A stretch of 64,000 bases of DNA. It comes from Halohasta litchfieldiae (GTDB lineage Archaea; Halobacteriota; Halobacteria; Halobacteriales; Haloferacaceae). The notes beneath the pieces are model-generated. The model saw nothing but the letters and a program-made list of their open reading frames with translations. It did no database searches and was not told the DNA's origin. The stretch is taken from positions 2,728,001 through 2,792,000 of the forward strand of contig NZ_CP024845.1 of assembly GCF_002788215.1 (NCBI RefSeq). Direction: 5' to 3'. The position numbers were made by a program, and so were the translations under genes. Positions within the stretch are counted from its first letter, which is position 1. The number at the start of each line of letters is the position of its first letter. This document shows, piece after piece, positions 7,171 through 28,557 of this stretch.

Positions 7171-7297
7171 CGATTGTCCGCCCTCCTCGCGGCCCCTGTA
7201 GCGCTAGCTGGCGCGGTCGACAGCGATTCTCGACGGTCAGCGATCACGCATAATCGAACCGATGGATGAAAGCGTCTTCGGCGGCTGGAAACCAGTA

Positions 7298-8530
7298 ATG
7301 GATCTGCAGTTTCTCGGGGGTGCTGGCGAGGTCGGCCGGAGTGCGATCCTCGTCAACGACTCTCTCTTGTTGGATTACGGCTCGCTGACTGCGAACCCGC
7401 CCCAGTACCCCGTCGGCAACGTCGACCCCGAAGCCGTCGTCGTCTCTCACGGCCATCTCGATCACGTCGGTGCGATTCCCTCACTGCTCTCAGGCTCCAG
7501 TCGACCCGAAATTCACTGGACACCACCGACTGCCGAACTCGCCCGCATCCTCGCGCGTGATACGCTCAAACTCCATGGCGGGACGATGCAGTGCCCCTTC
7601 ACCGAGACGGATGTCGCCCGAATGGGCGAGGTCGACACCCGCCATGGCTACGGTGAAACCTTCGACGCGGCGGGCCACGAAATTACCCTTTATAATGCGG
7701 GCCATATCCCCGGCTCGGCACACGTGCTGGTCGACGATGGCGAGACCCGACTCTTGTATACGGCTGATTTCCATACTGACGATACGCGGCTCTTGAGCGG
7801 GTCGACAGCCCGGCCCGAGGCGGACGTAGTGCTCTGTGAGTCGACCTATGCGAACGTGAGCCACGACGAGCGGTCGGACGTCGAATCGCGGTTTGCCGAG
7901 ACGGCCAAAACCACGATGTGGGAGGGCGGGACGGTTGTCGTGCCGGCGTTTGCGATTGGCCGGACCCAAGAGTTGCTCATGGTGTGTGAGGCACATGATT
8001 TGGAGTGTTACGTCGACGGGATGGGCACCGAAGTGCTGTCGATGCTGCGGCAGTATCCCGACTACGTGCGGGATGCCGACGCCCTCGGTCGGGCTGCACG
8101 CCACGCCCGCGAGGTCACCGGCCGCGATGGCCAGCGCAAGCGGATCGCCGATCAGAACACGGTAATCGTCACGACAAGCGGGATGCTCAGCGGTGGGCCA
8201 GCGATGACCTACATTCCCGAGATTCGGACCAATCCGGTGAATCGGATCTCGCTGACGGGGTATCAGGTCGAGGGGACGCCGGGGCGAGAGCTGCTGGAGA
8301 CGGGCCGCTGTGAACTCAATGGTGGGATCTATCCGGTGTCAGCCCAGACGGACTTGTTCGACTTCTCGGCGCATGCGGATCACGAGGGGTTGCGTGGGTT
8401 TCTTGAGCAATATGAGGGGTCGACGGTGCTCGTAAATCACGGCGATTCGTGTGCGGCGTTTGCCGAGGAGTTGCGTGAAGATGGGTTCGAGGCGGAGGCT
8501 CCGGAACTCGGCGAGACGGTGGAGTATTGA
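7298..8530 (+). CDS. Beta-CASP metallo-beta-lactamase nuclease (CPSF/RNase J-like)
   Basis: The protein of about 410 residues starts MDLQFLGGAGEVGRSAILV. It has the zinc-binding HGHLDH motif (VVSHGHLDHVGAIP), a later zinc ligand region GHIPGSAHVL and ADFHTDD, the beta-CASP insert (VVVPAFAIGRTQELLM, VTTSGMLSGGPAM) and the closing RMMBL-type segment with DFSAHADHEGL. This is the archaeal family of RNA-processing exo/endonucleases related to eukaryotic CPSF73, without N-terminal KH domains. It probably acts in RNA 3'-end processing or decay. An alternative start at 7262 would add 12 residues. Confidence 0.88.
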   Translation: MDLQFLGGAGEVGRSAILVNDSLLLDYGSLTANPPQYPVGNVDPEAVVVSHGHLDHVGAIPSLLSGSSRPEIHWTPPTAELARILARDTLKLHGGTMQCPFTETDVARMGEVDTRHGYGETFDAAGHEITLYNAGHIPGSAHVLVDDGETRLLYTADFHTDDTRLLSGSTARPEADVVLCESTYANVSHDERSDVESRFAETAKTTMWEGGTVVVPAFAIGRTQELLMVCEAHDLECYVDGMGTEVLSMLRQYPDYVRDADALGRAARHAREVTGRDGQRKRIADQNTVIVTTSGMLSGGPAMTYIPEIRTNPVNRISLTGYQVEGTPGRELLETGRCELNGGIYPVSAQTDLFDFSAHADHEGLRGFLEQYEGSTVLVNHGDSCAAFAEELREDGFEAEAPELGETVEY

Positions 8531-8671
8531 CCGATGTTACTGGCCGATTTATTTATAATAGAGTTCTACTTTATTATTTACTTCAGTCGAATCAGGAATA
8601 CGCTAGATGTCTTAATAGCCAGATACACATACTATGGCTAAATTTAACCTGTTAGGAAATATGGAATACAT
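8531..8671. promoter_or_regulatory. AT-rich leader of the reverse transcriptase gene
   Basis: Base composition switches abruptly from GC-rich to AT-rich right after the stop of the nuclease gene. TTTATTTATAATAG (about 8546-8560) is a good archaeal TATA candidate. Several defence-associated reverse transcriptases use a non-coding RNA encoded beside the gene. These 141 bp, and the 159 bp after the gene, are the only places for one, but I see no strong hairpin. Confidence 0.4.
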
Positions 8672-10291
8672 ATGTCTCTATCAAGTGATCTTAATCTAGA
8701 ATTAGCTTGGGAGAAAACTAAAAGGAATCTGTCCCGGAATGACAAAATATTCATTAATAATCCTTATATTACTGAAATTATTGACCATGATCGAAGCGAA
8801 TACATAGAACAACTCTCGCAAAAACTTGACAGTGGTTATTCCCCATCAGATTCACGTACTGTTAGTTTTCCTAAAAAAGATTGGAATGTTCGTCCTGCTA
8901 GTGTTCTAAAAATTACTGATCTAACCATCTACTCAGCGATTATCATCGAGCTTTATGATGATATTCGGAGCGAAATACAGTGGTCAGCACAAGACCGACG
9001 TTTTTCTAGAATTTTGCTTGATGATATTAGTGAGAATAGCTATTGGATGGAAAATCCATTTAAATCTTGGAAGCAGTGGAATGAGAAGAGTCAAACACTT
9101 TATAATGAATATGAATATGTACTTTCAACAGATATATCGTCTTATTTTGAGAATGTCGAACATCGAATATTAGACTCAAATCTGAGAGAGATAACTGATA
9201 ACGAGAAATTAAGAGATCTACTTTGGAAATTTCTTGCACGATGGAATCGTCCAAAGGGTCGTGGACTACCACAAGGTTACTACCCCTCTAATATTCTTTC
9301 AGAGCTATATTTAAACAGAATAGATAAGAGAATTAAATCAGAAGGTTACGATCACACTCGATATGGAGATGATTTAAAAATATATTGTCGAAATAGAAAT
9401 GATGCAATAAATATGCTAAATAAGTTGTCAGAATTGTATAGAAATAAGGGTCTGTATATAAATAAAAGTAAAACAGAAATCTTGACTTCTAAAGAGGCTA
9501 AGAGAAAGTTCAAAGATCCGAGAGAGATTATTAAACAGTTACAGCCAAAAATAGTTGACAGAATAAGACAGGAACGTGAAGACCGGAGGAAGAAAATTAA
9601 AGCCAAAAGAGATAAAGATTCATCAGATAGTAGAAATTATATACCGTACACAGATGGCGGTGAAATAGATGAATCAGACATTAGAGAAGATGAAGAAATA
9701 ATTCTTTTAGGGAATGCTTTTAAGAAGCATATTGAAGATTCTGACCTAGATAATAAAAGTTTGTTTAATTATTTAGTAAGGAACTTGGGAGATGTTAACA
9801 GCCATTATGCTGTGCCATATTGTCTTGATAGAATAAAAGACGGTAGAACACAGATAAGAAGAATTGTTGATAAGTATTTCTCCAAGTTAAATAATCGGGA
9901 TGAAATTGCTAATAAATTGATTAGCATGATTCTAAATGAAGAGATTATCTATGAATTTCAGAAATTTGTTATTGTTCGATGGATATTTCAGAGTAATATT
10001 AAAACAAAGAAGACAATATCTGGGATGCGAAGACTATTCAGAGAACCTCAACAAATCCCCGAAACTAGAAACTATATAATAGCATATTTAGGCAAATACG
10101 GTGATAAAACAGATGTTGAGACAATATCAGAAGAGTATCCTAAATCAAATAATCCTGTTCAAAAATCAATTATTTTAATCGCTATTCGGGATATGGACCC
10201 TGAAATAAGAGGTGCCTTTTATAATCAAGCTAGTAAAGACCACCAATATTGCAAGTCATCTGTAGCTCTTGCAAAGAATATTTCCGGCTGA
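8672..10291 (+). CDS. Reverse transcriptase, solo defence-type (Abi/UG-like)
   Basis: The 539-residue protein carries the RT core: motif A VLSTDISSYFENVEHR (Asp154), motif B GRGLPQGYYPSNILSELYL (PQG at 200-202), motif C RYGDDLKIY (Asp233-Asp234), and a motif D-like GLYINKSKTEIL. All three catalytic aspartates are present. There is no maturase, endonuclease or integrase domain, so it is neither a group II intron nor a retrotransposon enzyme. The C-terminal half (about 330-539) is helical and repeat-like (NRDEIANKLISMILNEEIIYEF, PVQKSIILIAIRDM), as in AbiA/AbiK and 'unknown group' RTs of defence systems. The gene is far more AT-rich than both neighbours and sits alone between core genes, which indicates transfer. 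It should synthesise DNA, but template and trigger are unknown. Confidence 0.88.
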   Translation: MSLSSDLNLELAWEKTKRNLSRNDKIFINNPYITEIIDHDRSEYIEQLSQKLDSGYSPSDSRTVSFPKKDWNVRPASVLKITDLTIYSAIIIELYDDIRSEIQWSAQDRRFSRILLDDISENSYWMENPFKSWKQWNEKSQTLYNEYEYVLSTDISSYFENVEHRILDSNLREITDNEKLRDLLWKFLARWNRPKGRGLPQGYYPSNILSELYLNRIDKRIKSEGYDHTRYGDDLKIYCRNRNDAINMLNKLSELYRNKGLYINKSKTEILTSKEAKRKFKDPREIIKQLQPKIVDRIRQEREDRRKKIKAKRDKDSSDSRNYIPYTDGGEIDESDIREDEEIILLGNAFKKHIEDSDLDNKSLFNYLVRNLGDVNSHYAVPYCLDRIKDGRTQIRRIVDKYFSKLNNRDEIANKLISMILNEEIIYEFQKFVIVRWIFQSNIKTKKTISGMRRLFREPQQIPETRNYIIAYLGKYGDKTDVETISEEYPKSNNPVQKSIILIAIRDMDPEIRGAFYNQASKDHQYCKSSVALAKNISG

Positions 10292-10450
10292 ACAGAATTT
10301 AGATCGTTACTTTTTAATTTGAAATATTAAATTAGTGTCTGATTCTACGTATTCTATTATTTGATAGCAGTGCTGACTCCCAGTCGACCACCCCAAACCA
10401 GTCCCCATTCCTGAATCAGTGCTTTACCCCACCGGGCCCAATGCCAGCCT

Positions 10451-10849
10451 ATGGCTGACCACAACGAACCCGACCTCTCGGCGGCCGAAAAGGAGGCCTT
10501 GCATGACATCCAGCATGCGACCGAACATCTGTATCAGGGGTTCGGCAACCTCATCGCGTTTCACCACAAAACCGGGCGTGCGATGGATAAGCTGGCTCAA
10601 GCCGAGGAAACCCTCCGCAAGGCGGGCCACGAGGAGTACGCCGACGAACTCCGCGAGAAGCATCTCCCCTCGGGTGCGGTCGACGACATGTGGACCTACG
10701 AGGTCGTCGACACCTTTCGGCACGGCTTCCTGCCGGAGATCACCGAGTTCGACGACCGGATTCGGAGGGATATCGCCGACGGCCACCACCACATCACTGA
10801 AAGCGAGCAGCAGGAGGAATGGCGCGACCGCGTCGACTGGGAACCCTAA
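10451..10849 (+). CDS. Conserved haloarchaeal protein, helical, unknown function
   Basis: A 132-residue acidic, largely helical protein (SAAEKEALHDIQHATEHLYQ, MDKLAQAEETLRKAGHEEYADEL) with many His residues (HHKTGRAMDK, DGHHHITESE). No membrane segment and no recognised domain. GC content returns to the core level from about 10380, marking the right edge of the AT-rich insert. The gene ends 12 bp before the convergent gene at 10862. Confidence 0.7.
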   Translation: MADHNEPDLSAAEKEALHDIQHATEHLYQGFGNLIAFHHKTGRAMDKLAQAEETLRKAGHEEYADELREKHLPSGAVDDMWTYEVVDTFRHGFLPEITEFDDRIRRDIADGHHHITESEQQEEWRDRVDWEP

Positions 10850-11553: not shown

Positions 11554-14007
11554 TTAGTCGTCAGCGGTGGGGGCTACTCTCGTCGTCGTCCCAATCGGCT
11601 CGGCGGTCCGTTCGTCGGCATCCAGCGCGGTCCACTCTAGTTCGCCTGCGTAGTGGAACGTGCCGTGGTTCTGTGTGGGATCGACAACCGTTAGCGAGAG
11701 CCATCCGTTGTCCAGCAGTTGCGTGACTTCCTCGTTTGCCGAGAGAATATCGGTCACACGGTCGACGGGCGCGTGAATCACCGTCGAGAGACGGAGCGGC
11801 TGGTGGTACGGCGTCTCGTCGTCGGCCATCACCGACTGGAGCGGCAGGCCAGTCAGCAGGTCGCCACCGTTGCCCTGATAGACGCCGACGTTGCCGACCG
11901 GGTTGTGGGTGACTTTTGACCCGCTGCCGAAGGTTGCGGTGTCGACGGTCGCGAAGTAGTACTGGTTGTTGATCCACTGGGTGACGACCATCGGGCCGGC
12001 CATGATCGCTTCGAGGGCCTCGCCGTCGGGATCGGTCGACCAATCGTAGGAATGGAGGAATGCGCGGCCGTCGAGATCACAGCCAGCGGTGAGGTCGCGC
12101 GGTCCGATGACGAACGACGCGTTGCCAGCCAGCCCCCATTCGGGGCGGGTCTCGGCCCAGTCGGCCGCACGGCGCTCGGTCTCTGTGAGGCCATCGGTGT
12201 CTGTGCCCATGGACTCGGCGCGTTCGGCGGCCGCTCCGGCGCGGGCTGTGTCGAGATCGGCCTGTAGCTGGTCGACATCATCAGCGTGGCTTTCTGGAAT
12301 GTCGCTGGTGTAGAGCGTAATCTCGTCGGTCGTCGTGTTGTGCTCGCCAGCGAGGAACAGGGTATCCTCAGGAATATCATGTCCGCGGGCACGGAGTTCG
12401 TCTTTGACTGCCTCGTCGTTACAGATGGCCGCCAGCACGCGAGCGCTCGGTCCGCCGGGGTTGCCAGCGCAGGCCCCGCAGTCGAGGCTCGATCCGAACG
12501 GATTGTTCGACGTCTCGCTGGCGTGGCCGGTAAAGACAACGAGGCGGGCAAACTGCTCCCAGCCCATGAGGTCGAAGGCGGTTTCGGCGTACTCGACTTT
12601 CTCGTCGAGGGTTAGCCCTTCGCGGAGTTCGGTCATCGCGTCTGGGTTGTAGTCGACCGAGGGCTCGCAGAACTCGTGAGAGTGATGGGAGTGGTCGACG
12701 CTGTCAGTGAACGCCGAAAAGCGATCTGGCACCAGTGTCCGGGCGGCCAGCGCGGCCCCGTAGCCTGCGCCGGCGCTCTCGACGAAGCTAAAGGCGGTTG
12801 CGGCGTTGGATTTGAGTGCTTTGAGGACGTTGTGGCCCATCTCCGTGGTCTGCTGCCAGCGGTCGTAGGCGTCTCGTGTGGCGTCTGTCCCCGACGTCGG
12901 GCGGTCGGTGATGCGGTGTTGGGCATCCACGATTGGGGGACAGGCGTCGACTGTCACGTCCGAATCGTACCCTTCGTGGCGCATCGGGATGCCGAAAAAA
13001 CCGGCGTAGCCGTGGGTCTCGTAGGCCCCCGTCGACTCGATGTGGCGGCGGATGATCTCCGAGCGCGTGTCGATACAGAACACCATTTGTGCATCCGGAC
13101 GGCCACTGTCTTCTGCCTCGGAGAGCGAGCCACTGGCCTCGGCGACGACGTCGACCAACTCCTCGCGGTAGGTGCGTTCCCATGCGGTCAGCCAGACTTC
13201 GGCCAGCGGAACCTCGTCCCCTGCGGTGTCGGCAGCGTCAGTCCACTCGGTCGGTGGCTCGATGGGCGAACCAAGGAGGTTCGCGATTGTCAGGCGCACT
13301 GCAAGGTAGTCAACGAGGCTAATCGGATACGTCGACTGCCAGGCATCGTCGCTGTCGGCCTGCTGTTTGATCAGTCCAGTCCACCCCGGCAATGCGGTCA
13401 GGTGGTACTCGAAGATCGTCTCCCACTGGTCGACTGGGGAGTCTACGAGAACCTCTTCGATGGCCGCAACTGGCTCGTCGGGCCGGTCAGCAATCGAGCC
13501 ACTGTTGGGTAGGTTGCGGTCGTGGCGAGCCACCGTACGGAACGCGGTATAAAATCCTTCCTCGCGGTTCGGCATCGGCCACTCGGTTTGGCCCTGATCG
13601 AGGAACGCCGCCAGCCATTTCGTCAGCAGGAGGTCGACTGCCTCGTCAGCGGTCGAGGCGGTGTCGTCGGTCGAATCGCCGTCGTCGGCTCTCGCCATCT
13701 CCATGCGATTCAACAGCGCTTCGGGATCGTCATCATAGCCGTAGTCGACCAACTCCTGCTGTAGCAGTTCGGAGTCGATCTGGCCATCGTTCCACGCCGC
13801 TCGAAAGACGTCGACGCTCGGGTAGCCATCGCTGCCGAACAGTCGCTCGGCCTCGGCGGCGGCCTCGTGGAACGGCTGGTCTTCGAACCCCGAAAGCGGG
13901 TTGGCCGTCACAAAGGAGTGGAGCGGCCACGCCGACCCGACCGTGGTTGCTGCGGCTTCGATGCTATCTTCGACCGTCGTTTCGTGGATCTGGCTTTCAG
14001 TACTCAT
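11554..14007 (-). CDS. dabA: DabA, carbonic-anhydrase-like subunit of the DAB inorganic-carbon pump (DUF2309)
   Basis: This 817-residue soluble protein belongs to DUF2309/UPF0753. The predicted zinc site is complete: Cys311 and Asp313 (MVFCIDTRSE), His495 (TGHASETSNNPF) and Cys510 (SSLDCGACAGNPGG). The 15-residue gap between the last His and Cys equals that of the characterised bacterial DabA. The C-terminal part contains GNVGVYQGNGGDLLTGLPLQS and LRLSTVIHAP, family hallmarks. DabA works with a membrane ion channel subunit to hydrate CO2 vectorially and trap bicarbonate in the cell. The start codon overlaps the end of dabB by 11 bp, so the two are co-transcribed. Haloarchaea are heterotrophs, so the bicarbonate would feed carboxylation reactions rather than autotrophy. 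Confidence 0.93.
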   Translation of the reverse strand: MSTESQIHETTVEDSIEAAATTVGSAWPLHSFVTANPLSGFEDQPFHEAAAEAERLFGSDGYPSVDVFRAAWNDGQIDSELLQQELVDYGYDDDPEALLNRMEMARADDGDSTDDTASTADEAVDLLLTKWLAAFLDQGQTEWPMPNREEGFYTAFRTVARHDRNLPNSGSIADRPDEPVAAIEEVLVDSPVDQWETIFEYHLTALPGWTGLIKQQADSDDAWQSTYPISLVDYLAVRLTIANLLGSPIEPPTEWTDAADTAGDEVPLAEVWLTAWERTYREELVDVVAEASGSLSEAEDSGRPDAQMVFCIDTRSEIIRRHIESTGAYETHGYAGFFGIPMRHEGYDSDVTVDACPPIVDAQHRITDRPTSGTDATRDAYDRWQQTTEMGHNVLKALKSNAATAFSFVESAGAGYGAALAARTLVPDRFSAFTDSVDHSHHSHEFCEPSVDYNPDAMTELREGLTLDEKVEYAETAFDLMGWEQFARLVVFTGHASETSNNPFGSSLDCGACAGNPGGPSARVLAAICNDEAVKDELRARGHDIPEDTLFLAGEHNTTTDEITLYTSDIPESHADDVDQLQADLDTARAGAAAERAESMGTDTDGLTETERRAADWAETRPEWGLAGNASFVIGPRDLTAGCDLDGRAFLHSYDWSTDPDGEALEAIMAGPMVVTQWINNQYYFATVDTATFGSGSKVTHNPVGNVGVYQGNGGDLLTGLPLQSVMADDETPYHQPLRLSTVIHAPVDRVTDILSANEEVTQLLDNGWLSLTVVDPTQNHGTFHYAGELEWTALDADERTAEPIGTTTRVAPTADD

Positions 14008-17455: not shown

Positions 17456-17500
17456 TGCTCGATCAGGGATTCGAACCCTGGTCCTCGGCTCGAAAGGCCT
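17456..17500 (-). pseudogene. 3' half of a tRNA-Glu(UUC)-like sequence
   Basis: On the minus strand one can read an anticodon arm GGC-CTTTCGA-GCC (loop with anticodon TTC), a variable region, a perfect T arm CAGGG-TTCGAAT-CCCTG, and an acceptor 3' strand ATCGAGC plus A. The 5' side does not give a proper tRNA: a GCTCGAA that could pair in the acceptor exists at 17527-17533, but no D arm with GG in the loop can be formed. The sequence therefore looks like the downstream half of a tRNA-Glu gene joined to foreign DNA, as left by integration or excision of an element. It could also be an odd intact gene, but I consider that unlikely. Confidence 0.5.
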
Positions 17501-17527
17501 GTATTCATCAGCGAATGATGAGGTGTT
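17494..17527. repeat. 34-bp direct repeat, left copy
   Basis: Matches 19903-19936 at 32 of 34 positions, beginning AAGGCCTGTATTCATCAGC and ending TGATGAGGTGTT. Both copies contain the palindrome CATCA-(5 nt)-TGATG on the complementary strand, with the two differences confined to its loop. The first bases overlap the tRNA-like anticodon arm. The two copies bracket an AT-rich 2.4-kb segment with two genes, so they may be attachment-site halves of a small integrated element. Confidence 0.6.
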
Positions 17528-17827
17528 TCGAGCGCATTCAATCTCGCCTAAGTGCGGTGTTTGGCCGCTTACAATAGCTAACACGTAACCTTACCACTTA
17601 AAATACCCAGATGATTGTCCACCTGCCAAGTCAGGTTCAAAGGATTATATTCCGAAAATGGATGATTTGTGATAGAATTGATAACCGCCCCTCAGAATAC
17701 GTAGACTTCCACTTAGAAATTAGTGTTTCAGGAGTCGGTGCCCAGCCCTCAGAAAGGTTCTACTCTGTGACATCGATATTCTGGGTATACACAAATTTAA
17801 TAACATATCTTTGTGTTCTTGTATTAG

Positions 17828-18208
17828 ATGGAATATACTAGTTCTGATCCAACGACAAACGGTGTAGAGAGTGCTATCAAGAAAATGAATTGGGAGGAAC
17901 CAGGAATGTATCGTGTTGAGTGGAGCAGTAGTGAGAAATGGGATTTTGACTCCGCTTATGCAGTTCAAGAATTTCGATTTGGAGAGGGAGCTAGAGCACA
18001 AATGTTGTTAATCGGGCCCCGTGGTGGAGAATATTTAATTGACTCAAATCCTACGGGACGGCCAAAAGTGATCCAACTCCGTTCAGATGGATATGAAAGT
18101 GAGGACCGACTTGCCGAAATTAAAATCTTCTCAGAGGATTTCAATTGGCGGCATCGAGTGCTGAGAGCTATTGAGGGTGCTACTGACAAAATCCCCGAAC
18201 GATCTTAG
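17828..18208 (+). CDS. Hypothetical protein in AT-rich island
   Basis: A 126-residue protein of unknown function (MEYTSSDPTTNGVESAIKKMNWEEPGMYRVEWSSSEKW...). The middle part looks like a small beta domain (AVQEFRFGEGARAQMLLIGPRGGEYLIDSN) and the C-terminus is helical (RLAEIKIFSEDFNWRHRVLRAIEGA). Codon use is AT-rich compared with the core, in line with transferred DNA. It converges with the larger gene at 18259. Confidence 0.6.
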   Translation: MEYTSSDPTTNGVESAIKKMNWEEPGMYRVEWSSSEKWDFDSAYAVQEFRFGEGARAQMLLIGPRGGEYLIDSNPTGRPKVIQLRSDGYESEDRLAEIKIFSEDFNWRHRVLRAIEGATDKIPERS

Positions 18209-18258
18209 AAGTTTAGAAGTCTAATAGAATATCGACATTTAAGCATTTTTAAAGAATA

Positions 18259-19644
18259 CTATTCTAACATTTCGCCAAGTGATTTGACACCTTCATTAGA
18301 AAATATCTGTTCCGGATCAACCTCACGCAGTGGTGAATCTTGGGGTACATAGCTGTACAGTAATCCTGCGGATGCTCCGGCTATAGCCCCTTGTTTTGAG
18401 GTTAATGGAGATTCTGGTCGTTTTCCGAGCTCAATCCCAGCCTCAGCACCCTTCATAATTGTTTCTGGACTAGTTCTCTCAACTAAATGCTTGTATGACA
18501 CCGGCATAATCTGCTCAGCCATATATCGTGAGGCACCAATACTAGCACCTACACGCTCAGAACTGAAATCAGCCATGTTGAATCGGCTACCGAGATCTGC
18601 ATTGGCAAGTCCTCGATCCAGGAGTTCATCGGGATCAATTGATATTGAGTCTCCAGAAATAGTGTGATGTGCTTTGAGCGTTGTTCCCATCAATGTGGTT
18701 AGACCAACTGTTATTGGAGTTGAATAAGGGACAAATTTTGCGTATTGGAGTGCTTGCCCCCCTACTCTCAGTCCTGTTCGAATTGATTCGTACCAATCTA
18801 CACTTTCTCGGTTGGTCCGGATATTATCCAAAACAGATCGGTCAATTACATCATTAGTAGTCTGATTTACTCTGTTCGTGTTTCCTGAATCCTGTGAAGG
18901 ATCATCATGGTTTTTGCCACTCCGACCGCGAAGAGTTTTCACCTGATCAGATGTAACTGCCAAATCTTCTATAAACCTAACTGTACTATTGACATCCGAA
19001 CGTTCTGTCTCCGGGTGAAGATAAATCTCGAATTTGGCATCTACAGTGGTTAATTTGAGTTTGAATACAACTTCGACATCACTTGTAACGGGCTCCGTAT
19101 CCTCAGTAAACCATTCTTGGTGAGCTGGTGGTGATACGATCGCCTCAATATCAACTATTTTGGAAATTGGAGCGGAAGCTAAGTAATCCCCATCTGAATC
19201 TCCAAGGATGAACAAAACACGTTTGTCAGTTACGATGACGAATGGGCGGTACCCACTGTCAGCAATCATACCGTGAGTGCTTCGTTCATCTCGAAGATAG
19301 CGACTTTCTTCACGGTCTCGAATCACAACATAATTATTTGCTAAGAAGACGTAATGTGGTGATTCATCCGGTAGGAGATAACCAATTAGAGGTCGGTCGT
19401 AGCTTCGACGTTTTTCTAGTCGATCTTGAGAAAGGAGGCGAGAAAAGAATCCTGTCTTTTGGGCAGTCAACCGTTCAGTCGAAACAGTTTCTGACTCTGC
19501 TTGAGAGACGATTCTCTGGACATATTCATGATCCCACCAATTTGGATCCTCTGGATACGAAACTTGCCCAGTTTCGTGGTTGCATTCCGGGCATTCGCTG
19601 ACAACCGACGGTATTGACTTCCCACATGAAGTACAAATATGCAT
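18259..19644 (-). CDS. Zinc-ribbon plus PH-like domain protein, unknown function
   Basis: The 461-residue protein begins with a zinc ribbon of four cysteines (HICTSCGKS... ECPECNHE). A linker and then a region typical of bacterial/archaeal PH-like domains follow (GYLLPDESPHYVFLANNYVVIRD, RPFVIVTDKRVLFILGD, ISKIVDIEAI). The C-terminal 180 residues are rich in Gly and small residues, with an amphipathic pattern (KQGAIAGASAGLLYSYVP) that may insert into or lie on membranes. Proteins of this plan occur on haloarchaeal islands. It may be membrane- or stress-associated, but no activity can be assigned. AT-rich codon use. Confidence 0.65.
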   Translation of the reverse strand: MHICTSCGKSIPSVVSECPECNHETGQVSYPEDPNWWDHEYVQRIVSQAESETVSTERLTAQKTGFFSRLLSQDRLEKRRSYDRPLIGYLLPDESPHYVFLANNYVVIRDREESRYLRDERSTHGMIADSGYRPFVIVTDKRVLFILGDSDGDYLASAPISKIVDIEAIVSPPAHQEWFTEDTEPVTSDVEVVFKLKLTTVDAKFEIYLHPETERSDVNSTVRFIEDLAVTSDQVKTLRGRSGKNHDDPSQDSGNTNRVNQTTNDVIDRSVLDNIRTNRESVDWYESIRTGLRVGGQALQYAKFVPYSTPITVGLTTLMGTTLKAHHTISGDSISIDPDELLDRGLANADLGSRFNMADFSSERVGASIGASRYMAEQIMPVSYKHLVERTSPETIMKGAEAGIELGKRPESPLTSKQGAIAGASAGLLYSYVPQDSPLREVDPEQIFSNEGVKSLGEMLE

Positions 19645-19802
19645 TATTCACATATACTTATTGAGATATTTGTATGTGACGAATTACCTTTATTAATGAT
19701 ATCAATCGCCCTATTGTGTTGGCTGGGCTTGCCTACAAGAATGCACTCGGTCGTCCAGTCAAGTCCAGCAACCCGGTGAGGATCAGTTCAACATACGGGT
19801 GA

Positions 19803-19985
19803 AACACAGACATACTCGCCAACGCATCACACTACCAACTAGCGGGCACCCTCAGCGATGATACAGAAATCGCGTTGTGTATCGCCCGAAGTCTCGTCGA
19901 CGAAGGCCTGTATTCATCAGCTAGTGATGAGGTGTTCAAGCGTATCCGAATGATTCACTGCAAAACACGTCGACACGATCTTTAA
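19803..19985 (+). pseudogene. C-terminal relic of an unknown gene, carrying the right repeat copy
   Basis: An open stretch of 60 codons without a start reads NTDILANASHYQLAGTLSD then DTEIALCIARSLVDEGLYSS and ASDEVFKRIRM to a stop at 19983-19985. The same C-terminal segment (GLYSSANDEVFRA) is readable across the left repeat at 17494-17527. It looks like the tail of a gene cut by recombination. The rest of 19645-20186 holds nothing I recognise. Confidence 0.4.
19903..19936. repeat. 34-bp direct repeat, right copy
   Basis: Partner of 17494-17527 with 32 of 34 identical positions. Here the sequence continues an open reading frame on both sides rather than a tRNA-like arm. Confidence 0.6.
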
Positions 19986-20186
19986 ATTCCGTTTGTTGAG
20001 AAGATGTGAATTCGAATCCAGTTCCGCTAGATTCATTTTGAAACATATCTTTCCACGACGGAGTAATGGATCAAGTTCTAGGACGAAGCGTTAGACTTGG
20101 CACAACCTATGATTGTCATTCTGCATGATAATTGCACCACTCATACGCTTCCCTGAAAGTCCAAAACGTATCTGTGGACGAAATTG

Positions 20187-20636
20187 TTACTCTGTCCAGA
20201 AGCCTCGCTGGCGGTCTTCGATCTCGGTGAGAGCCATCGAAAGGACATCACGCCAATCGCGTGGATGTGTTGTATCAGTTCCTGGTGTCGGTGCATCCGG
20301 ACCCGGATGGATGTGATCTAGCGTGTTATGAGTTGAGGGATGTCGGTCCCACCGATGATCGAAGGCATCGTCACCGTGGTCTTCGTGGTAATGCAGCGAG
20401 AAATCACCGTTCTCGTACCACGCAATCTCTAATCGGGACGTCTGAACGCTCTCAGGATAAAATGTAGAATCATACACGCACACCAACCGATCCGGTGCGA
20501 ACTCGGGTTGTTCATCGATTCGACGAAACCGCCTGTCGGAACCGAATCGCTCTTTGATCACGGCCAGGCGTTCAAAATCAACCGGCGCACCACTCTCCTC
20601 GTCAGTCGGTCCGACACGGTCGTCCGTGTCAGTCAT
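20187..20636 (-). CDS. TumE-like protein, putative toxin of a toxin/antitoxin-type pair
   Basis: The 149-residue protein has a central block DRLVCVYDSTFYPESVQTSRLEIAWYENGDFSLHYHEDHGD, then WDRHPSTHNTLDHIHPGPDA. This is the His-rich pattern of TumE/DUF6516-type proteins common in Halobacteria, and it ends in a helix (WRDVLSMALTEIEDRQRGFW). The conserved Asp/His set suggests an RNA-acting or metal-binding fold. The gene overlaps the upstream helix-turn-helix gene by 4 bp (ATGA), so the two are translated together, as in toxin/antitoxin modules. Confidence 0.65.
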   Translation of the reverse strand: MTDTDDRVGPTDEESGAPVDFERLAVIKERFGSDRRFRRIDEQPEFAPDRLVCVYDSTFYPESVQTSRLEIAWYENGDFSLHYHEDHGDDAFDHRWDRHPSTHNTLDHIHPGPDAPTPGTDTTHPRDWRDVLSMALTEIEDRQRGFWTE

Positions 20637-21208
20637 ACGGCAGTCGATTGATCAACGTGATCACCAGCGCCACTCGCCAGTGCTCGTTCAAGCAACGTAA
20701 TCCGTCGACGAGTTGTTTTCCACGCTGAAACTGCCTCCCACACATCCTCCACCGAACGATCAGTGTCTGCTGCAGCGTTCGTGAGTGATACGGCCTCGGG
20801 AACTGCAACATCGAACTGTTCGGTATACGCTTCGTCACGCTCGGTTTCGGTCTTCAAGAACTCAAGTAACCTCCCGGATGTGTACTGGTCTCGAAGTTTC
20901 TGCACGCGACGCCAGTTCAAATACGCTTGATTCCGCTGGTAGGTTGCTGGCGAGTCGGTGACCTGCTTGACGATTCCCATCCGTTCGAACCACTCTAAGT
21001 ACTCTCGGGCAGCATCAACCCCGTGACCTGCGAGCTCAGCAACTTCGCTCGCCGTCGACGGGCTATCCAATCCAAGGATAGCATCGAAGAAATCATCGCG
21101 TGTTCGGTCTCCTCGAACAAGTTCTTCGGGTGGCGTCAGCGCATCGAAATCCGGCGACTTAACGCGCTCGTCAGCGTCTGTGGTCTGTTCGGGGCGCGGT
21201 TCGTCCAT
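20633..21208 (-). CDS. Winged-helix protein (DUF7342-like), partner of the TumE-like gene
   Basis: The 191-residue protein starts MDEPRPEQTTDADERVKSPD and has a helix-turn-helix near residues 45-85 (GLDSPSTASEVAELAGHGVDAAREYLEWFERMGIVKQV), followed by a helical C-terminal part. Such proteins sit next to TumE-like genes in many haloarchaea and probably act as DNA-binding antitoxin or autoregulator. ATG at 21208 is preferred to a GTG at 21229. The end overlaps the downstream gene by ATGA. Confidence 0.65.
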   Translation of the reverse strand: MDEPRPEQTTDADERVKSPDFDALTPPEELVRGDRTRDDFFDAILGLDSPSTASEVAELAGHGVDAAREYLEWFERMGIVKQVTDSPATYQRNQAYLNWRRVQKLRDQYTSGRLLEFLKTETERDEAYTEQFDVAVPEAVSLTNAAADTDRSVEDVWEAVSAWKTTRRRITLLERALASGAGDHVDQSTAV

Positions 21209-22309
21209 ACCGATCCTAAACTCTAACACGGAATAAATCTTTGTTTGCTGGGAATAATCCGGTTACAACAGTCTTTGAATATCAATACACAACCTGTCGA
21301 CTATTCTTATACAATTACTAACCGTAGTATTCAGTATGGGTTCTACACCGAAATGGTTCACCACAAAAATTATCAGGTAGAACTCAAATTTTATTTACAT
21401 TTCATAGGTATGAATCCAATCAGGCAATCACACGCTCTTTTGAGACGTTTCCAGTGTTTTTGAGACGTTTTGTGGAACTACACAATAAACACGGTTTGAA
21501 TCACTTGTACGAGACAAGTTGTGAGGTGCTTTTGAGACGAATAAACTGTTTTTGGAACATTATTCGTGGATGATGAGTAATCTCCTTCTCTGAGAGTCCA
21601 ATCTTTGGGTGTTCAAACAGATTTTCTGCCAGCTAAATGTTCCAAATAGCTCTTAAATTCTGTTTTGGTACATTAGATTTGAGGATATTTATCCGTATAC
21701 ATGTGTCACTGAGAGCTTGGTGTTGTCCGGTTGTTGATCTTCGTATGTAGAGGGTGTTTTTATTGGTCGTTTGATGTGTATTATTGTGGACTGGTTTGCT
21801 TAGCAGGGCCTGAGTGAGACTAGTCTGAATTCGTGTGAGAATACTTGGTATGGAAGCAATCGGAGTCAACTACCCTACCCTGAGCGCCTGCAGCGCTCTG
21901 AGAGTGGGGCTTGCGTGCGGCTTCTCGGGATAGGATTCATCTCGACGAAAGACGTTTGTGGCGCACGGCCAAACGCCAGCAGCAATTTGATTAGACGTGA
22001 CCTCCACTTTATCCCGCGACCGAGATCACGGTGACGGAGAGGCACGTGGCGTCACGTTCACTTCCTCGGTCCGTCTTTCGGGGGTGGTTGATTGCGAGAC
22101 CCGTCTACGCCGAGAAACGTACCGTGGCCTCGTTGGCACGTGGCCCTCGCGGACTGTCTGTGGCCCATCATGGATACTCAAAAGGTCGTCGCACTTGGAT
22201 ATTAACATTCACACGCTCTTTTTTCCTCCTTTCTGCTTGCTCCGCTCGCCCTTGGAAGGAGATTTCACGCTATCACTTCTGTTGAAGTAACTTCCTAGTC
22301 GTGTGTTCG
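21209..22309. other. 1.1-kb region without a convincing gene
   Basis: The left 650 bp are AT-rich and contain three copies of TTTTGAGACG (about 21438-21540) and several GTTTTGGAAC/GTTCCAAA-like words, which look like decayed repeats. The middle holds a strong cruciform (21874-21934). The right part (21990-22300) is GC-rich, but every frame lacks codon bias and known motifs. It may be a degraded mobile-element end. Confidence 0.4.
21874..21934. repeat. Long imperfect inverted repeat with inner perfect hairpin
   Basis: CCTACCCTGAG (21874-21884) pairs with CTCGGGATAGG (21924-21934) at 9 of 11 positions. Inside lies the perfect hairpin GAGCGC-CTGCA-GCGCTC (21882-21898). The arrangement resembles subterminal hairpins of IS200/IS605 elements or a structured RNA; no transposase gene is attached. 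Confidence 0.45.
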
Positions 22310-24616
22310 TTAAACGTGCCCAACGATTTTGTGTTGGTGGTCATTTGTTCCAGCATTGATGTGTTCGGTGTTGAGAGACCGGTACGTGTGGAGTGTATCG
22401 AAGTATTCTCCGAGGAATTCTTCGGCGATTAGTTCCCGCTCCCAGTTTGATCGGCCATATGAGTCTGCAGTAGAGTCAGGGAATGTTTTGAAGTCAAGAT
22501 GATTTGGATCGTTCAAATGATTCATCACTCTCCAGAGGTGTTGACTGTTCGGGGTGATAAACCATGTTTCGATTGTTTCTGAGAGTGCAGAGAGTTTTTG
22601 AACGCATCGTTGTGATTTTGATGCTGCATTTGATGCTGTTTCGACACCAACTGCGTACTTTGGAGTTGTTCCGTTGAATGCGATAACGTCGACACGCGTT
22701 GAAAACAAGTGTTGGTCGGCGAGTGCTGGTTCGCAAAGAGTTCCGCGGAGTCGCCAGAGGTCGCAGTACCGAATGACTCGTGTCACGTCTGGCTTTGCGG
22801 CGAGTGCGGCAGCGCAGTAATCAACGCCTTTGCGATGCAGAGATTTCTCACTCGGTGTTTTTTCGCCGTACCCGTCGTGTGAGATGTTTTCGATCCCTAA
22901 ATCACGGCGTTTTCGGTACGGAACGGTGTACAAGACGTCGGTGCCTTCGGTGTGTTTTTCCAGCCATTTATCATCAATTAATTTCGCTTCATTGATTTGT
23001 AACTCGTTTCCGTCTGCATCGTATCTTAACGGCCGCATGCTGCGCGTCAGGGATGCGTTATTGAGTAATCGCTCCATTGCTAAGCTGATCCGGGTGAGGA
23101 AAACGACTTCGTCGCATGTGAGACGTTGGAACGATTCTGCGTCGACGAGTGGTTCAGTGTCGTGCAGTGCGGTGACCGCGGGTTGGGTTGTGACTGCGGT
23201 TCGTTGGGCGTGCGTTAATTGCGTCTCGTACGGTTGTAGGTGCGCCTGTGAGTATTTACGTGGGAGAACCGGGCGAATTCCTTGGCTTCGGTGTCTGTTA
23301 GGTGCTTGTTGTCCGCGTTTAGCTTGACTTTGTTTAGCGAGAGTCACCTGATACTGTTCCCAAGGGTTTACTCTCATTCGGGGGTGATATGGAGAGGGTT
23401 TCGGTGCCGGGATGGTACAGTCGAGTGCGTTACTGTTTGAGTGGTTGAAGACTCTGAACTGGTCGTTCGCGGCGGCTTGAAGCGCGTTTTGCAGTGTCTC
23501 TTTCGTTCCAATATCGTTCCCTGGGCGGTGTGGCGCTGGGAAAAACGTTCGAATCCGGTCGAACAACGTGTTGATACGTATTGGTTTACCGAATTCAAGA
23601 TCGGTGTTCGCGCGGATACAATCAATGACAGTGATGAGTCGTTTATCTTCGATCTCTATTGAATGGTTCGTGAGTGTTGAGTCCGTACTGGTTGTCCAGT
23701 TGCGTTTTGGGTTCTCTGTGTTTGTGGTCCCGTAGTACGGTATGAAGACCGTGCTTTTCGATTGGAAACGTGTGAATAAGTCTTCGTCAACGTTCGGGGT
23801 TGCCGTTACGAGACGGGTTAGGTCGTGTGATGTGAGTGTGTTGTACGCGATGCTGACGAGTTTTCCCCATGCGTGCCATGCGTATTCAGCGAGATGCAGC
23901 CGGAACTGTTTTTGCGGGATCTCGAAACCACCACGTTTGAATTCCACGTACGAGAGTCGCTCAGGGTAGTCGTGACCGATTTGACTCTCTGATTTCTGGA
24001 GTAGTTGGCAACATCGAGAAATGTGGTCGCTTGGGATACGGATATCTCCGTTGTCAGTGATTTCCACTCGGTTTTTGTACCGCTGGTGAACGGCTTCAGA
24101 ATCCGTCTCTGTGTACGTTTGGTAGTCCGTGTTTTTCGTTGAGTCTGCTGAGTCTGGTGCGAGTAGTACTGCTGCGATTTCTGATTGGAGTTCTGTTGGG
24201 AGTTCCTGTTCGAAAAAATCGGTGAGTGTGGCGATGTAATATTCACGCGCGTTGAGTTCGAACCATGTGAGGCCGGGATGTTTCAGTAATGGTTGTTGAA
24301 GCATGCGTCGTTCGGCGCTCTGTTCTGGTTCTCGTGTTTCGTATTTCGTTCCAACAAGTGGGTCTGCATGTTGGATGCGAAGCGGGGTGACTGCCGGGAA
24401 CGTTACGAGTTCTTGTACTGTGTTAATTCCAGTAACAGTTTGCGGCGTGATGTTTACATGGGCAAGCCCGGTTCGCACATACTGTTCGAACCTGTCTGCG
24501 TTAGTGAGGAGGGCTTCAGGCTCGTTTCGAAATAACGCTTCAAGTGACTCTCGCGGACAATCTAACGGGAGGAATGCTGCTCTGACAGCATCTCGCGTGT
24601 TTTTTACCGGGTTCAT
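22310..24616 (-). CDS. Large protein of unknown function, possible replication-relaxation or nuclease-like C-terminus
   Basis: This 768-residue protein is not recognisable over most of its length. Near residues 590-700 there is a block HRKGVDYCAAALAA... then STRVDVIAFNGTTPKYAVGVETASNAASKSQRCVQKLSAL. The order Asp-Val-Ile-x-Phe, a strand ending in Val-Glu, then a Lys-containing helix resembles the PD-(D/E)XK-like layout of 'replication-relaxation' proteins of plasmids. Before the IS insertion at 24672 this gene overlapped the upstream gene by ATGA, so the two formed an operon. The insertion now separates it from its original promoter. Composition is lower in GC than the core, suggesting plasmid or integrated-element origin. 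Confidence 0.6.
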   Translation of the reverse strand: MNPVKNTRDAVRAAFLPLDCPRESLEALFRNEPEALLTNADRFEQYVRTGLAHVNITPQTVTGINTVQELVTFPAVTPLRIQHADPLVGTKYETREPEQSAERRMLQQPLLKHPGLTWFELNAREYYIATLTDFFEQELPTELQSEIAAVLLAPDSADSTKNTDYQTYTETDSEAVHQRYKNRVEITDNGDIRIPSDHISRCCQLLQKSESQIGHDYPERLSYVEFKRGGFEIPQKQFRLHLAEYAWHAWGKLVSIAYNTLTSHDLTRLVTATPNVDEDLFTRFQSKSTVFIPYYGTTNTENPKRNWTTSTDSTLTNHSIEIEDKRLITVIDCIRANTDLEFGKPIRINTLFDRIRTFFPAPHRPGNDIGTKETLQNALQAAANDQFRVFNHSNSNALDCTIPAPKPSPYHPRMRVNPWEQYQVTLAKQSQAKRGQQAPNRHRSQGIRPVLPRKYSQAHLQPYETQLTHAQRTAVTTQPAVTALHDTEPLVDAESFQRLTCDEVVFLTRISLAMERLLNNASLTRSMRPLRYDADGNELQINEAKLIDDKWLEKHTEGTDVLYTVPYRKRRDLGIENISHDGYGEKTPSEKSLHRKGVDYCAAALAAKPDVTRVIRYCDLWRLRGTLCEPALADQHLFSTRVDVIAFNGTTPKYAVGVETASNAASKSQRCVQKLSALSETIETWFITPNSQHLWRVMNHLNDPNHLDFKTFPDSTADSYGRSNWERELIAEEFLGEYFDTLHTYRSLNTEHINAGTNDHQHKIVGHV

Positions 24617-24671
24617 TCGCTCACAGAACTGTTTTCTCGGAACTGGTCGGAGAACACATCAACCGGTGTAA

Positions 24672-25740
24672 GAGGGTGTCATAGAAAGCGTCACACACGA
24701 AGACGCAGGATGTTGGAACTGTGTCTACGAGCGCCAGCATCCTGCAAGAGGAGACTTCTATCGACGAGTTCTTCAATGTAATGGCGACCGAGACGCTCGC
24801 GTTGTTCGAGCATCTTGAGTTCGACTTTCTCGAAGAATTCGATGTGTTCGCCCCCGCTCGCCGGGGGCGAACACGAGATCATCACCCACCAGCACTCTTC
24901 CGAGCGTTCCTGCACTGCTACTACAAGAACGTCTACGGCATCCGTCCAGTCACGCGAGAACTCCAGAACACGGTCGTCTGGCTCAGCTGTGGCTTCGATC
25001 GACCGCCGTCGAGAGACGCGGTCGATCGCTTCCTCACCGACCTCGAACACGTCGTCGACGAGGTCTTCGACCGCCTCGTCGAGCAGGCCGCCTGCCGCGG
25101 CCTGCTCGACTTGACCTACTCCATCGATTCCACCGACGTGAGGACGATGCCCGCCGACCAAGACGCGTCGAAAGGCTACGATCCAACCGCCGAAGAGTAC
25201 TACCACGGCTACGGCTGTACGATCGTCTCGACCGGGCAAAAGATCCCGATTGCCGCGGAGTTCACCGAGAGCAAGCAAGCGCCAGAGGAGACGGCGATGC
25301 GCGTCACGTGTGACGCGCTCGCCGTCGAGAAACCGATCTGGATGCTTGGAGACAGCGCCTACGACACGCTCGGCTGGCACGACCACCTGCTGGCCGCAGG
25401 GGTCGTGCCAGTCGCTCCGTACAACGCACGAAACACCGACGATCCGAAAGACATCGAGTACAGGGTCGAAGCCCGCATCGACGAACACAGCGAGGACGTT
25501 CAGCTGAAGCAATCGACGCTAGACGAGACGTACAACCGCCGGAGTGGAGTCGAACGAACCAACGACGCCGTCAAGGACTGCGGCCTCGGGCACGTTCGCG
25601 CCCGAGGCCGCGTCCACGCACGAGCACAAGTGTTCCTCGCGCTGTGCCTTCGTCTCGTTATTGCGATCACCAACGACGAACGCGGAGACAATCCAGGAAG
25701 CACCGTCATCACGCTATGAGAACTATTCTATGACACCCTC
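24672..25740 (+). mobile_element. ISH11-like insertion sequence (IS5/IS4 superfamily)
   Basis: The element is 1069 bp with 15-bp perfect terminal inverted repeats (GAGGGTGTCATAGAA at 24672-24686 and its complement at 25726-25740). A 7-bp target duplication GGTGTAA lies at 24665-24671 and 25741-25747. Size and target length fit the ISH11 group. It sits in the 3' end of the gene that now ends at 25728. Confidence 0.9.
24721..25719 (+). CDS. Transposase of the ISH11-like element
   Basis: The 332-residue DDE transposase starts at a GTG. The catalytic region shows YSIDSTDVRTMP (first Asp), PIWMLGDSAYDTLGWHDHL (second Asp) and NRRSGVERTNDAVKDCGLGHVR (Glu, with the usual Y/R...E...K spacing). The N-terminal part contains the DUF772-like helix region (LFRAFLHCYYKNVYGIRPVTRELQNTVVW). 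The frame is intact and the element ends are perfect, so it may be active. Confidence 0.9.
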   Translation: MSTSASILQEETSIDEFFNVMATETLALFEHLEFDFLEEFDVFAPARRGRTRDHHPPALFRAFLHCYYKNVYGIRPVTRELQNTVVWLSCGFDRPPSRDAVDRFLTDLEHVVDEVFDRLVEQAACRGLLDLTYSIDSTDVRTMPADQDASKGYDPTAEEYYHGYGCTIVSTGQKIPIAAEFTESKQAPEETAMRVTCDALAVEKPIWMLGDSAYDTLGWHDHLLAAGVVPVAPYNARNTDDPKDIEYRVEARIDEHSEDVQLKQSTLDETYNRRSGVERTNDAVKDCGLGHVRARGRVHARAQVFLALCLRLVIAITNDERGDNPGSTVITL

Positions 25741-26728
25741 GGTGTAACGATATCATCAATGAGCTGCTTTGCCGTCACGAACTTGATGTGATCAAGCTCC
25801 GGGACACGTGTCGTGAGTTCATTGTTGACTGCTTGAATGTTCGGTTGGCGACCGTAGTACTCTATCGTGTCCTCAACCGGTGCAGCAGGTGTTGCCAATA
25901 ACTCATCTGCATCAAACTGATAGATGAGTTTGTGTATCGCTTTTCGACTAGGAACAACAACCAACGCGACAGCCGTGGTCGCCCGAATATGTTTCAATTT
26001 AGTCAACAATTCTCTATTGTCTTCATCCTCAATGACACACCCGACGACGGCTATATTCGAGCATGACTCGCCAGTAAATCCAGCGAAATCGAACATGTAA
26101 ATAGAGTCTGCCGATGGTTCTTTTTCGAGGTTTGGTGGTGATTGTGTTTTTGTTTCTCCTTCAGCTACTTGCGGTGAACCAATCACGTGTGGGGCACAAG
26201 CCCAATCAATCACCGGATGGGTAGCAAGCCAGTTACGGGCCTCACAAACGATTGTATTGTGCGCTGTGTGTTGAGCGAACGGAACAGACATTGGGAACTC
26301 AATTTCAGCCCACCGCGGTGGGTTAGACATATCCCACTTCGACATAAGGTTGAACCCATTGTCTGTGTGTCTAAACTGATCAAAGAACGCTTGTGTCACC
26401 GAGAGGACTTTCGCTCGGTATATTTGACCCTCTTTGAGCAAATTTGATTCACGAATCTGCGCTTCAGTAACACTGCCATTAAATCGACCCTCAGCGTTAC
26501 AGAATTCTTGAATCGAGACTCTCTCACTTTCAGTTATATTCCTGAAGATCGGGTATCCAGGAAGCACTTGGTATTGTTGTAACCAAATGAGATGCGTGAA
26601 TACATCGAATGCTTGTCTTTCGTCTGACCGGGCTGGTAAGTGACGAACGATCACGTCAGCTGCAGCAGACAACACGGTTGCTTCGCTGGTTTGCCGGATC
26701 GCAGCGCGGATTTCCTCTAACAGATCCT
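25728..26728 (-). pseudogene. Unknown operon gene truncated at both ends by insertion sequences
   Basis: The reading frame runs from the edge of the ISH3 element (26728, LLEEIRAAIRQTSEATVLSA...) to a stop at 25728 supplied by the ISH11-like repeat. The nearest usable start is GTG at 26675, but coding sequence continues upstream into the IS junction, so the 5' part is missing. At the 3' end, removing the IS restores ...DDIVT-PVDVFSDQFRENSSVSE and a TGA that overlaps the ATG of the 768-residue gene. The C-terminal part (MFDFAGFTGES, then LKHIRATTAVALVVVPSRKAIHKL) resembles the end of the downstream protein, suggesting two related subunits. Function unknown. Confidence 0.65.
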
Positions 26729-28127
26729 CAGTACCTCACAAAGCATCCTCGGCTAGCTGTTTCTGCGGCCTGAGTTCTGTGTCGAAGCGGTTGTACTGAC
26801 GGTCTCGACGAGAGAATTACGGACGGATCGACGGAGAGCTGTCGCTGTCGGCGGCGGTCAGCCGCCGACGCGACAGCGTCGCCACTCACTCCGCTGGCTT
26901 GCTCGGTCGGTGGTTAGCGGTGGAATCGGTCGTCAGGTGGCCGATTCGCGGGGACGGCCCGACGCACCGCGAGGGCCGTCCACGCAGCTCGTCGAATCAT
27001 ATTGACGAACTCCTTGTACGGCCACCACCAGAGGCGACGCCCGCCTCGGCGGGGCGTCGCCACATACTCGTAGTGAAGGTACCGCCAGACGTTCTGTAAG
27101 AGGAGACTCACCACCACGTACAGCAGCCGTACCGTTGGATCTCGTGTTGTCGTTGTCGCTATCGCTTGCTCAAACAAGCGATAGCTTGACTCGATACCGA
27201 AGCGTTTCGAGTAGTGGTATCGAGCGTCCCGTGGTGAGTCGATGAACGGCGCGTCAGCGGCGTAGCCGTGACGCGCCACACCGTTCTCGTCATACTTCCC
27301 ATTTAGGTACGTACAGTCGATGTAGACGGGAAAATCGACGGTCCAGCTGTGACCGTCGAGTTTCCCCGTCAGATCATGCTGAATGACGCGACTCCATCCT
27401 TCCGAGAGCTCTTGCTGAATCGCCTCACCCCACCGGATGATCGGGATCACGTACGCGTAATTGTGCGCCTGAAGCAGCGTGAGACACTTACTGTCGTAGA
27501 ATCCGCGATCAAGGTAGACGGCCTTGACCCCGGCGTCAAGGCCGTCGAGGACACCGAAGAACTCAGCGAGGACACTACTTGCGGTATCGCCGTCTTTGAG
27601 ACGGCGTACCGCCAGCGTGTAGCGTTTGTTCTTCACACGCGCGTAGAGTGTGGCATAGGCGTGGAACGCAGTGGTTCCACGCTTCGCTACCGAGTGATAG
27701 AGGCCGTCTGTGTCGTCTTCGTCACCGTAGTAGGGCCGCAGGTGGAGGTCTGCGCAGACCTCCACCTGTTCGGGGAGCAATTCATCGAGATCCTTTCGCA
27801 GGAGCGTGTTAGCGACTCGTTCGAGCCGTTCCGGCTCGAACTTCGTCCGAAGATGGTAGAGGACCGTGTTCCCAGCGGGTGAGTTCTGGCTCGACGCACA
27901 GAGCGTAGAGACAGAGGTCCCGTCGGCGCAAGCGCCGACGAGGACCTCATAGATGTCTTCAGCAGTGATTTCAGCGTTATTGGCTAACGAGAGCGAAACT
28001 TCCTCGTCAAGGCGGTTGACGAGAAAGTTAAGAAGCTGGTCCTCGTGGATCTCACCGTCTGCTTGTTTGGTTTTAGACACACCTTCAGCAAGCAGACGTT
28101 CTAACTAAGCGGCTTTGTGAAGTACTG
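26729..28127 (-). mobile_element. ISH3-family insertion sequence
   Basis: The element is about 1399 bp. Its terminal inverted repeats match at 15 of 16 positions (CAGTACCTCACAAAGC at 26729-26744; complement of CAGTACTTCACAAAGC at 28112-28127). The adjoining 5-bp words differ (ATCCT left, AAAAT right), so there is no target duplication. This suggests recombination or an adjacent deletion after insertion. Confidence 0.85.
26914..28080 (-). CDS. ISH3-family transposase
   Basis: A 388-residue transposase with the typical haloarchaeal ISH3/ISH27 sequence: an N-terminal helical region (EDQLLNFLVNRLDEEVSLSLANNAEITAEDIYEVLVGA), catalytic Asp in VCADLHLRPYYGDEDD, second Asp in VKAVYLDRGFYDSKCL, and Glu in RFGIESSYRLFEQA. 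Length and motifs are complete, so the enzyme looks intact. Confidence 0.92.
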   Translation of the reverse strand: MSKTKQADGEIHEDQLLNFLVNRLDEEVSLSLANNAEITAEDIYEVLVGACADGTSVSTLCASSQNSPAGNTVLYHLRTKFEPERLERVANTLLRKDLDELLPEQVEVCADLHLRPYYGDEDDTDGLYHSVAKRGTTAFHAYATLYARVKNKRYTLAVRRLKDGDTASSVLAEFFGVLDGLDAGVKAVYLDRGFYDSKCLTLLQAHNYAYVIPIIRWGEAIQQELSEGWSRVIQHDLTGKLDGHSWTVDFPVYIDCTYLNGKYDENGVARHGYAADAPFIDSPRDARYHYSKRFGIESSYRLFEQAIATTTTRDPTVRLLYVVVSLLLQNVWRYLHYEYVATPRRGGRRLWWWPYKEFVNMIRRAAWTALAVRRAVPANRPPDDRFHR

Positions 28128-28182
28128 AAAATACGCTGACCGTATTCTGTCGAAAAAAGCCTCTGATAAGGGCTTTAATAAA

Positions 28183-28557
28183 ATGCTTGGACGGATGACC
28201 CTAGGAGTAGTCCTCGTTTTGGGTTCGTTGATCTTATACAATCTTGATATTGTCGGAAGTATAGTTTCGACGGTCGCCATGCTGGTTGGGTTCTATTTGT
28301 GCATCAAATACCTCCAAGAGACGTTGATCCGCGATTGGTTTAGAGTTGAGGGATCAAGTCGACCAGTAGCCTGGGACGTCGCAGCTCGTGGACCGTTACT
28401 TATCCTCCCGTTAATTCTTATGTCAGGGGATATCGGCAATTTCCGACTCATCTCTGGTATAGAAATCCTTGATATTCTGTTATTAGCACCATCAATAGTT
28501 GGTGCAAGCTATATATTCACGAAGAGAAGGGCAGTACGAAATTCGCTTCCTTTCTAA
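28183..28557 (+). CDS. Small membrane protein, unknown function
   Basis: A 124-residue hydrophobic protein with about four membrane segments (LGVVLVLGSLILYNLDIVGSIVSTVAMLVGFYLCI, GPLLILPLILMS, ILDILLLAPSIVGASYIF). Start at 28183 or at the ATG 12 bp further on. It lies just beyond the right end of the ISH3 element. No family recognised. The 240 bp that follow contain no gene. Confidence 0.55.
   Translation: MLGRMTLGVVLVLGSLILYNLDIVGSIVSTVAMLVGFYLCIKYLQETLIRDWFRVEGSSRPVAWDVAARGPLLILPLILMSGDIGNFRLISGIEILDILLLAPSIVGASYIFTKRRAVRNSLPF

Follow-up and report, generated by a model that had tools for sequence, protein, structure and literature searches.

The window analysed here, a 64,000-nucleotide stretch of the Halohasta litchfieldiae genome, contains a new archaeal member of UG21, a known and functionally uncharacterised group of reverse transcriptases (RTs). 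The gene stands by itself in a small insert whose content differs between related species. We consider the chances slightly better than even that the gene by itself forms an abortive antiviral defence system, whose product is an oligomeric DNA polymerase that needs no template and is probably protein-primed. The DRT mechanisms described in the surveyed literature are bacterial. The six haloarchaeal UG21 copies, kept as a bare gene, provide a compact archaeal test of template-free immunity outside bacteria, and the template-free reading predicts that a helper RNA is unnecessary.

The Reverse Transcriptase Gene and Its Family

The RT gene is located at positions 8672 to 10291 of the window (forward strand) and is an intact ORF encoding 539 amino acids. 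It is present as a single copy in the 3.33 Mb genome. The RT domain core covers residues ~80 to 274 (8909 to 9493, forward strand), as delimited by the Pfam RVT_1 match (residues 104 to 274) and by invariant alignment columns. The core contains the motifs TD (residue 154), LPQG (residues 199 to 202), and YGDD (residues 231 to 234), with the catalytic residues D154 and D233/D234, the latter within RYGDD. An alignment of eight UG21 proteins shows D154, Q201, D233, and D234 to be invariant. The RT motifs listed in an earlier, sequence-only reading of this DNA were all located.

RVT_1 is the sole Pfam domain above cut-off (E value of 4.5e-23), which sets the protein apart from the class 3 UG/Abi enzymes, in which the RT is fused to a nitrilase or phosphohydrolase. 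No maturase or integrase domain was found in the RT with Pfam and NCBIfam, no Rfam RNA was found between positions 7000 and 12000, and no tRNA was found in the window. The description of the gene as free of intron, maturase, and integrase parts agrees with these results.

The PADLOC RT_UG21 profile (PDLC03759) matches residues 4 to 537 with a score of 591 bits. The next profiles are Drt8 (197 bits), UG20 (195 bits), and UG19 (185 bits), with UG22 and UG23 also among the next relatives, and the DRT4 and DRT6 profiles score just 63 to 68 bits. For those haloarchaeal relatives that were scanned singly, and for proteins from Corallococcus (569 bits) and a Nitrospirae MAG (404 bits), the best profile is likewise UG21. 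The RT is a strong member of this described group within the UG/Abi lineage. The myRT paper (PMC8934634) lists UG21 as a rare class of RT. Because the protein belongs so clearly to this group, the earlier suggestion of an undescribed type is not supported; the assignment to a defence-type RT of the UG/Abi lineage on a single-gene insert stands, given the profile match and the one-gene gap described below. A literature search for an experimentally tested UG21 member found none.

Placement among group II intron or retron RTs was rejected. The NCBIfam group II model TIGR04416 scores 98.9 bits against a cut-off of 300, the retron_St85 model scores 53 bits against a cut-off of 235, and no NCBIfam DRT model is above cut-off. 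The protein has the RT core in common with group II intron RTs/maturases and retron RTs but differs from them in lacking a maturase domain and an adjacent intron or retron (msr-msd) RNA match. With other UG21 RTs it shares the whole-length profile match and the combination of an RT with a helical C-terminus. It differs from them in being haloarchaeal, low in GC, basic (pI 8.9), and at most 57% identical to the relatives found.

Predicted Fold

A full-length AlphaFold model of the RT, built with nine sequences, has a pLDDT of 79 and a modest pTM of 0.56. The C-terminal 257 residues modelled alone gave better values (pLDDT of 84 and pTM of 0.74). The models and Foldseek searches place a C-terminal alpha-Rep/HEAT-like helical domain at residues ~339 to 539 (9686 to 10288, forward strand), which contains the invariant residues R513 and Y517. 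The helical C-terminus noted earlier is thus borne out, as far as the predicted model goes. The RT palm and fingers are predicted to be joined to this domain in the manner of the Abi polymerases, DRT4, and DRT6.

Among solved structures, the top full-length Foldseek matches are DRT4/UG15 and DRT6. AbiK, Abi-P2, and AbiA follow, interspersed with group II RTs, and DRT9 appears from rank 19. The full-length TM-scores are 0.44 to 0.47. The C-terminal domain alone matches designed alphaRep/HEAT proteins with a TMq of ~0.5 to 0.55, which is not significant (E > 0.05).

By the published definition, UG/Abi enzymes of class 1 synthesise DNA independently of a template and have an alpha-Rep domain C-terminal to the RT, those of class 2 rely on ncRNAs encoded in cis, and those of class 3 bear nitrilase or phosphohydrolase domains (PMC13174585, PMC13275509). 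The architecture of the RT, as modelled, is class-1-like. DRT4 (UG15) and DRT6 resemble it as single-gene systems with an RT and a helical domain; however, they belong to other UG groups, and the identity in the structural alignment is 14 to 16%. AbiK and Abi-P2 also carry an RT-like domain and a helical domain and are known for protein-primed, template-independent DNA synthesis. They differ in their lower Foldseek rank and in their N-terminal priming tyrosine (Y44/Y61), which has no conserved UG21 counterpart.

The Variable Site and Its Base Composition

The RT gene lies within a strain-variable insert at positions 8531 to 10393. These limits follow from alignment to two congeneric genomes, G283 and G148. 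Their similarity to the window breaks off at 8530/8525 and resumes at 10394/10406, and each carries other genes in the interval. The insert postulated earlier is therefore defined by comparison of orthologous loci. The left limit is the end of a beta-CASP metallo-hydrolase gene (7262 to 8530, forward strand; Pfam Beta-Casp and RMMBL). The right resumption precedes the gene for a conserved 132-amino-acid protein (10451 to 10849, forward strand), which is present in 26 of 60 genomes of the host's family and has no Pfam match.

In G148, the gap holds a two-gene ribbon-helix-helix/PIN cassette of ~0.8 kb that is toxin-antitoxin-like, with a weak PIN match. In G283, it holds a gene for a 481-amino-acid response-regulator/PAS/histidine kinase protein. 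Since the congeners carry other genes here (loci L086 and L087), the site is variable and the RT is one of its alternative cargoes. Three species of the genus thus have either an RT, a ribbon-helix-helix/PIN pair, or a response-regulator kinase between the beta-CASP gene and the 132-amino-acid gene, and this gap is a small single-cassette hotspot. The ORF list shows no integrase or other large ORF in the gap around the RT, and no mobility genes are present there. No defence gene adjoins the RT among the ten proteins scanned in the window.

The RT gene has a GC content of 0.328 and a GC3 of 0.252, the flanks are about 61 to 62% GC, and the shift is sharp at ~8540 and ~10390. UG21 genes in every haloarchaeal host are 33 to 43% GC, with a GC3 of 25 to 36%, and the UG21 gene of the myxobacterium Corallococcus is 50% GC in a 67% GC context. 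A high AT content seems to characterise the UG21 gene family as a whole. The sharp compositional step reported in the sequence-only reading is confirmed, but because all UG21 relatives are low in GC, low GC alone does not indicate a recent AT-rich donor, and its value as proof of recent transfer is weakened.

Relatives, Distribution, and Selection

A first scan of genome contigs for relatives of the RT returned no match, a scan of viral contigs returned distant RTs only, and phage records gave only partial matches with less than 32% identity. Full-length relatives were found in Halomontanus (57% identity), Natrialba (50%), G118 (35%), G125 (34%), and YIM A00013 (34%). Approximately 1% of haloarchaeal genomes carry a UG21 RT, with three to four other copies in ~390 genomes per draw. 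The six haloarchaeal copies come from several families. They group with Corallococcus in the tree (95/97), and the Nitrospirae UG21 protein forms a long branch placed elsewhere. The H. litchfieldiae RT groups with the Natrialbaceae copies (99/99) and not with the copy of G125, a member of its own family, which implies transfer between families.

Four UG21 RT pairs have dN values of 0.16 to 0.40 with saturated dS. Low dN against saturated dS indicates that the protein has been maintained, and purifying selection acts on it. The Halomontanus copy is on a plasmid and adjoins BREX genes, the G118 and G125 copies are in integrase-containing regions, and the Natrialba and YIM copies have ordinary neighbours. 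No recurring partner gene was seen across the haloarchaeal UG21 loci.

The integrase-containing loci and the sporadic distribution would suit a domesticated or selfish RT on mobile elements that serves the element or is useless to the host. Such a non-defence role is very improbable, however, in view of the purifying selection, the intact chromosomal one-gene insert in a gap lacking mobility genes, and the UG/Abi family membership. Mobile elements also often bear defence genes.

Direct repeats flank two of the related genes. In Corallococcus (L044), the UG21 RT lies between two direct repeat copies of 148 bp (7337 to 7484 and 9595 to 9742) that are 90% identical. The right copy falls within an adjacent ORF, in its 3' part, which is where integration into a gene end would place it. 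In G118 (L003), the RT lies between direct repeat copies of 56 bp, at ~1000 upstream and ~3390 downstream, that are 86% identical and contain GCCCCTAAGGGGGC.

Flanking Sequences and Helper RNA

The insert contains an AT-rich upstream flank of 141 bp (8531 to 8671), which is likely the promoter region, and an AT-rich downstream flank of 102 bp (10292 to 10393). Neither shows similarity to the flanks of the relatives. The upstream flank has a fold z of −1.1 on the forward strand and +0.7 on the reverse strand, and the downstream flank has values of −1.7 and −1.1, respectively. The G125 and YIM genes, which share 75% amino acid identity, were compared over 700 bp on each side. DNA similarity begins 7 bp ahead of the ATG, continues through the gene, and is lost just short of the stop codon. 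DNA matches between Halomontanus and Natrialba, and between the window and each of these, are likewise confined to the ORF (50 to 57% identity pairs). A cis ncRNA template would be expected to be conserved at such protein identities. A flanking helper RNA is not supported by these sequence comparisons, and the RNA proposed earlier for the 140 to 160 bp beside the gene was rejected, with unconserved flanks, unremarkable folding, and no Rfam match. Conservation limited to the gene favours the other option raised there, a single-gene unit. An RNA overlapping the RT gene could still be present.

These results bear on the possibility that the RT is class-2-like and copies a small, fast-evolving ncRNA, located in a flank or overlapping with the gene, into repeat DNA in the manner of DRT2, DRT9, and DRT10. 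Those systems are also defence RTs of the UG/Abi lineage and consist of single RTs with cis ncRNAs (PMC12632851). AT-rich flanks are present here, and DRT9 is among the Foldseek matches. This mode of action is nevertheless unlikely: the cis ncRNA required in those systems is not detectable beside the H. litchfieldiae gene, flanks are dissimilar even at 75% protein identity, the best fold z is a weak −1.7, and the full-length fold is best matched by DRT4 and DRT6, both alpha-Rep enzymes. In addition, known DRT ncRNAs are longer than either flank.

An upstream element of 100 bp and a palindrome of 35 bp, both shared by the Halomontanus and G118 loci, were considered as parts of the RT system. 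Both were rejected because they also flank other Halomontanus plasmid genes and because the 15-base core is found in 21 of 116 haloarchaeal genomes, often in the absence of the RT. The upstream and palindromic downstream elements are located at 11780 to 11880 and 13700 to 13765 of L036, around the RT in L038, and at 80500 to 81544 of NZ_CP135526.1. On another Halomontanus plasmid, the two elements flank an unrelated gene for a 243-amino-acid protein, and on a third, the downstream element adjoins a gene with a PAS domain. Many Natrialbaceae plasmids also carry the upstream element. The pair is possibly an uncharacterised cargo-swapping site.

Proposed Mechanism

Under the favoured template-independent reading, the RT would oligomerise through its helical domain, as the Abi polymerases do (PMC9508834). 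It would then synthesise single-stranded DNA without a template, as its architecture and gene-only conservation suggest, and priming would probably be by a side chain of the RT itself. By analogy with DRT4 (PMC13213688), a virus-dependent trigger would cause the DNA to accumulate, and virus growth would be stopped by abortive infection. The class 1 (alpha-Rep) enzymes studied to date are template-independent (PMC13174585, PMC9508834, PMC13213688). The UG21 match, the fold rank of DRT4 and DRT6 with AbiK and Abi-P2 close behind, the resemblance of the C-terminal domain to designed alphaRep/HEAT proteins, the gene-only conservation, the selection on the protein, the variable site, and the BREX-adjacent homologue all point to this reading. 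Against it are the ranking of Drt8, UG20, UG19, UG22, and UG23 ahead of DRT4 and DRT6 in the profile search, the modest pTM and the full-length TM-scores, the group II RTs among the same Foldseek matches with DRT9 not far below, the unconserved AbiK priming tyrosine, and the lack of adjoining defence genes among the ten proteins scanned.

The same profile ranking would fit a defence mechanism that the UG19-23/Drt8 cluster has to itself, in which synthesis is neither untemplated nor templated by an ncRNA in a known way, or the need for a partner encoded elsewhere. The literature search found no mechanism for these closest groups, and PMC13213688 lists Drt8 but gives none for it. We regard this alternative as unlikely, given the lack of a recurring neighbour across the haloarchaeal loci and the predicted alpha-Rep architecture.

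Regarding the priming residue of a template-independent enzyme, an AbiK-type N-terminal tyrosine is not conserved among the eight UG21 proteins; of the Ser, Thr, and Tyr residues that lie outside the RT motifs, Y517 alone is invariant. A more speculative proposal, with a low probability, is that this archaeal immune polymerase writes untemplated DNA on itself from the C-terminal Y517 rather than from an N-terminal tyrosine as in the Abi polymerases. If true, this would provide the first demonstration of a template-free defence RT acting against archaeal viruses, in a high-salt cytoplasm.

Other Features of the Window

Positions 17500 to 34000 of the window form a broad stretch of lower GC (42 to 58%) with long ORFs, for example 22310 to 24616 and 18259 to 19644, both on the reverse strand. 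The long ORFs of this stretch, these two included, have no Pfam or PADLOC matches, and it is probably an accessory region. Two overlapping frames at positions 434 to 1434 look, by eye, like a two-frame IS630-type transposase.
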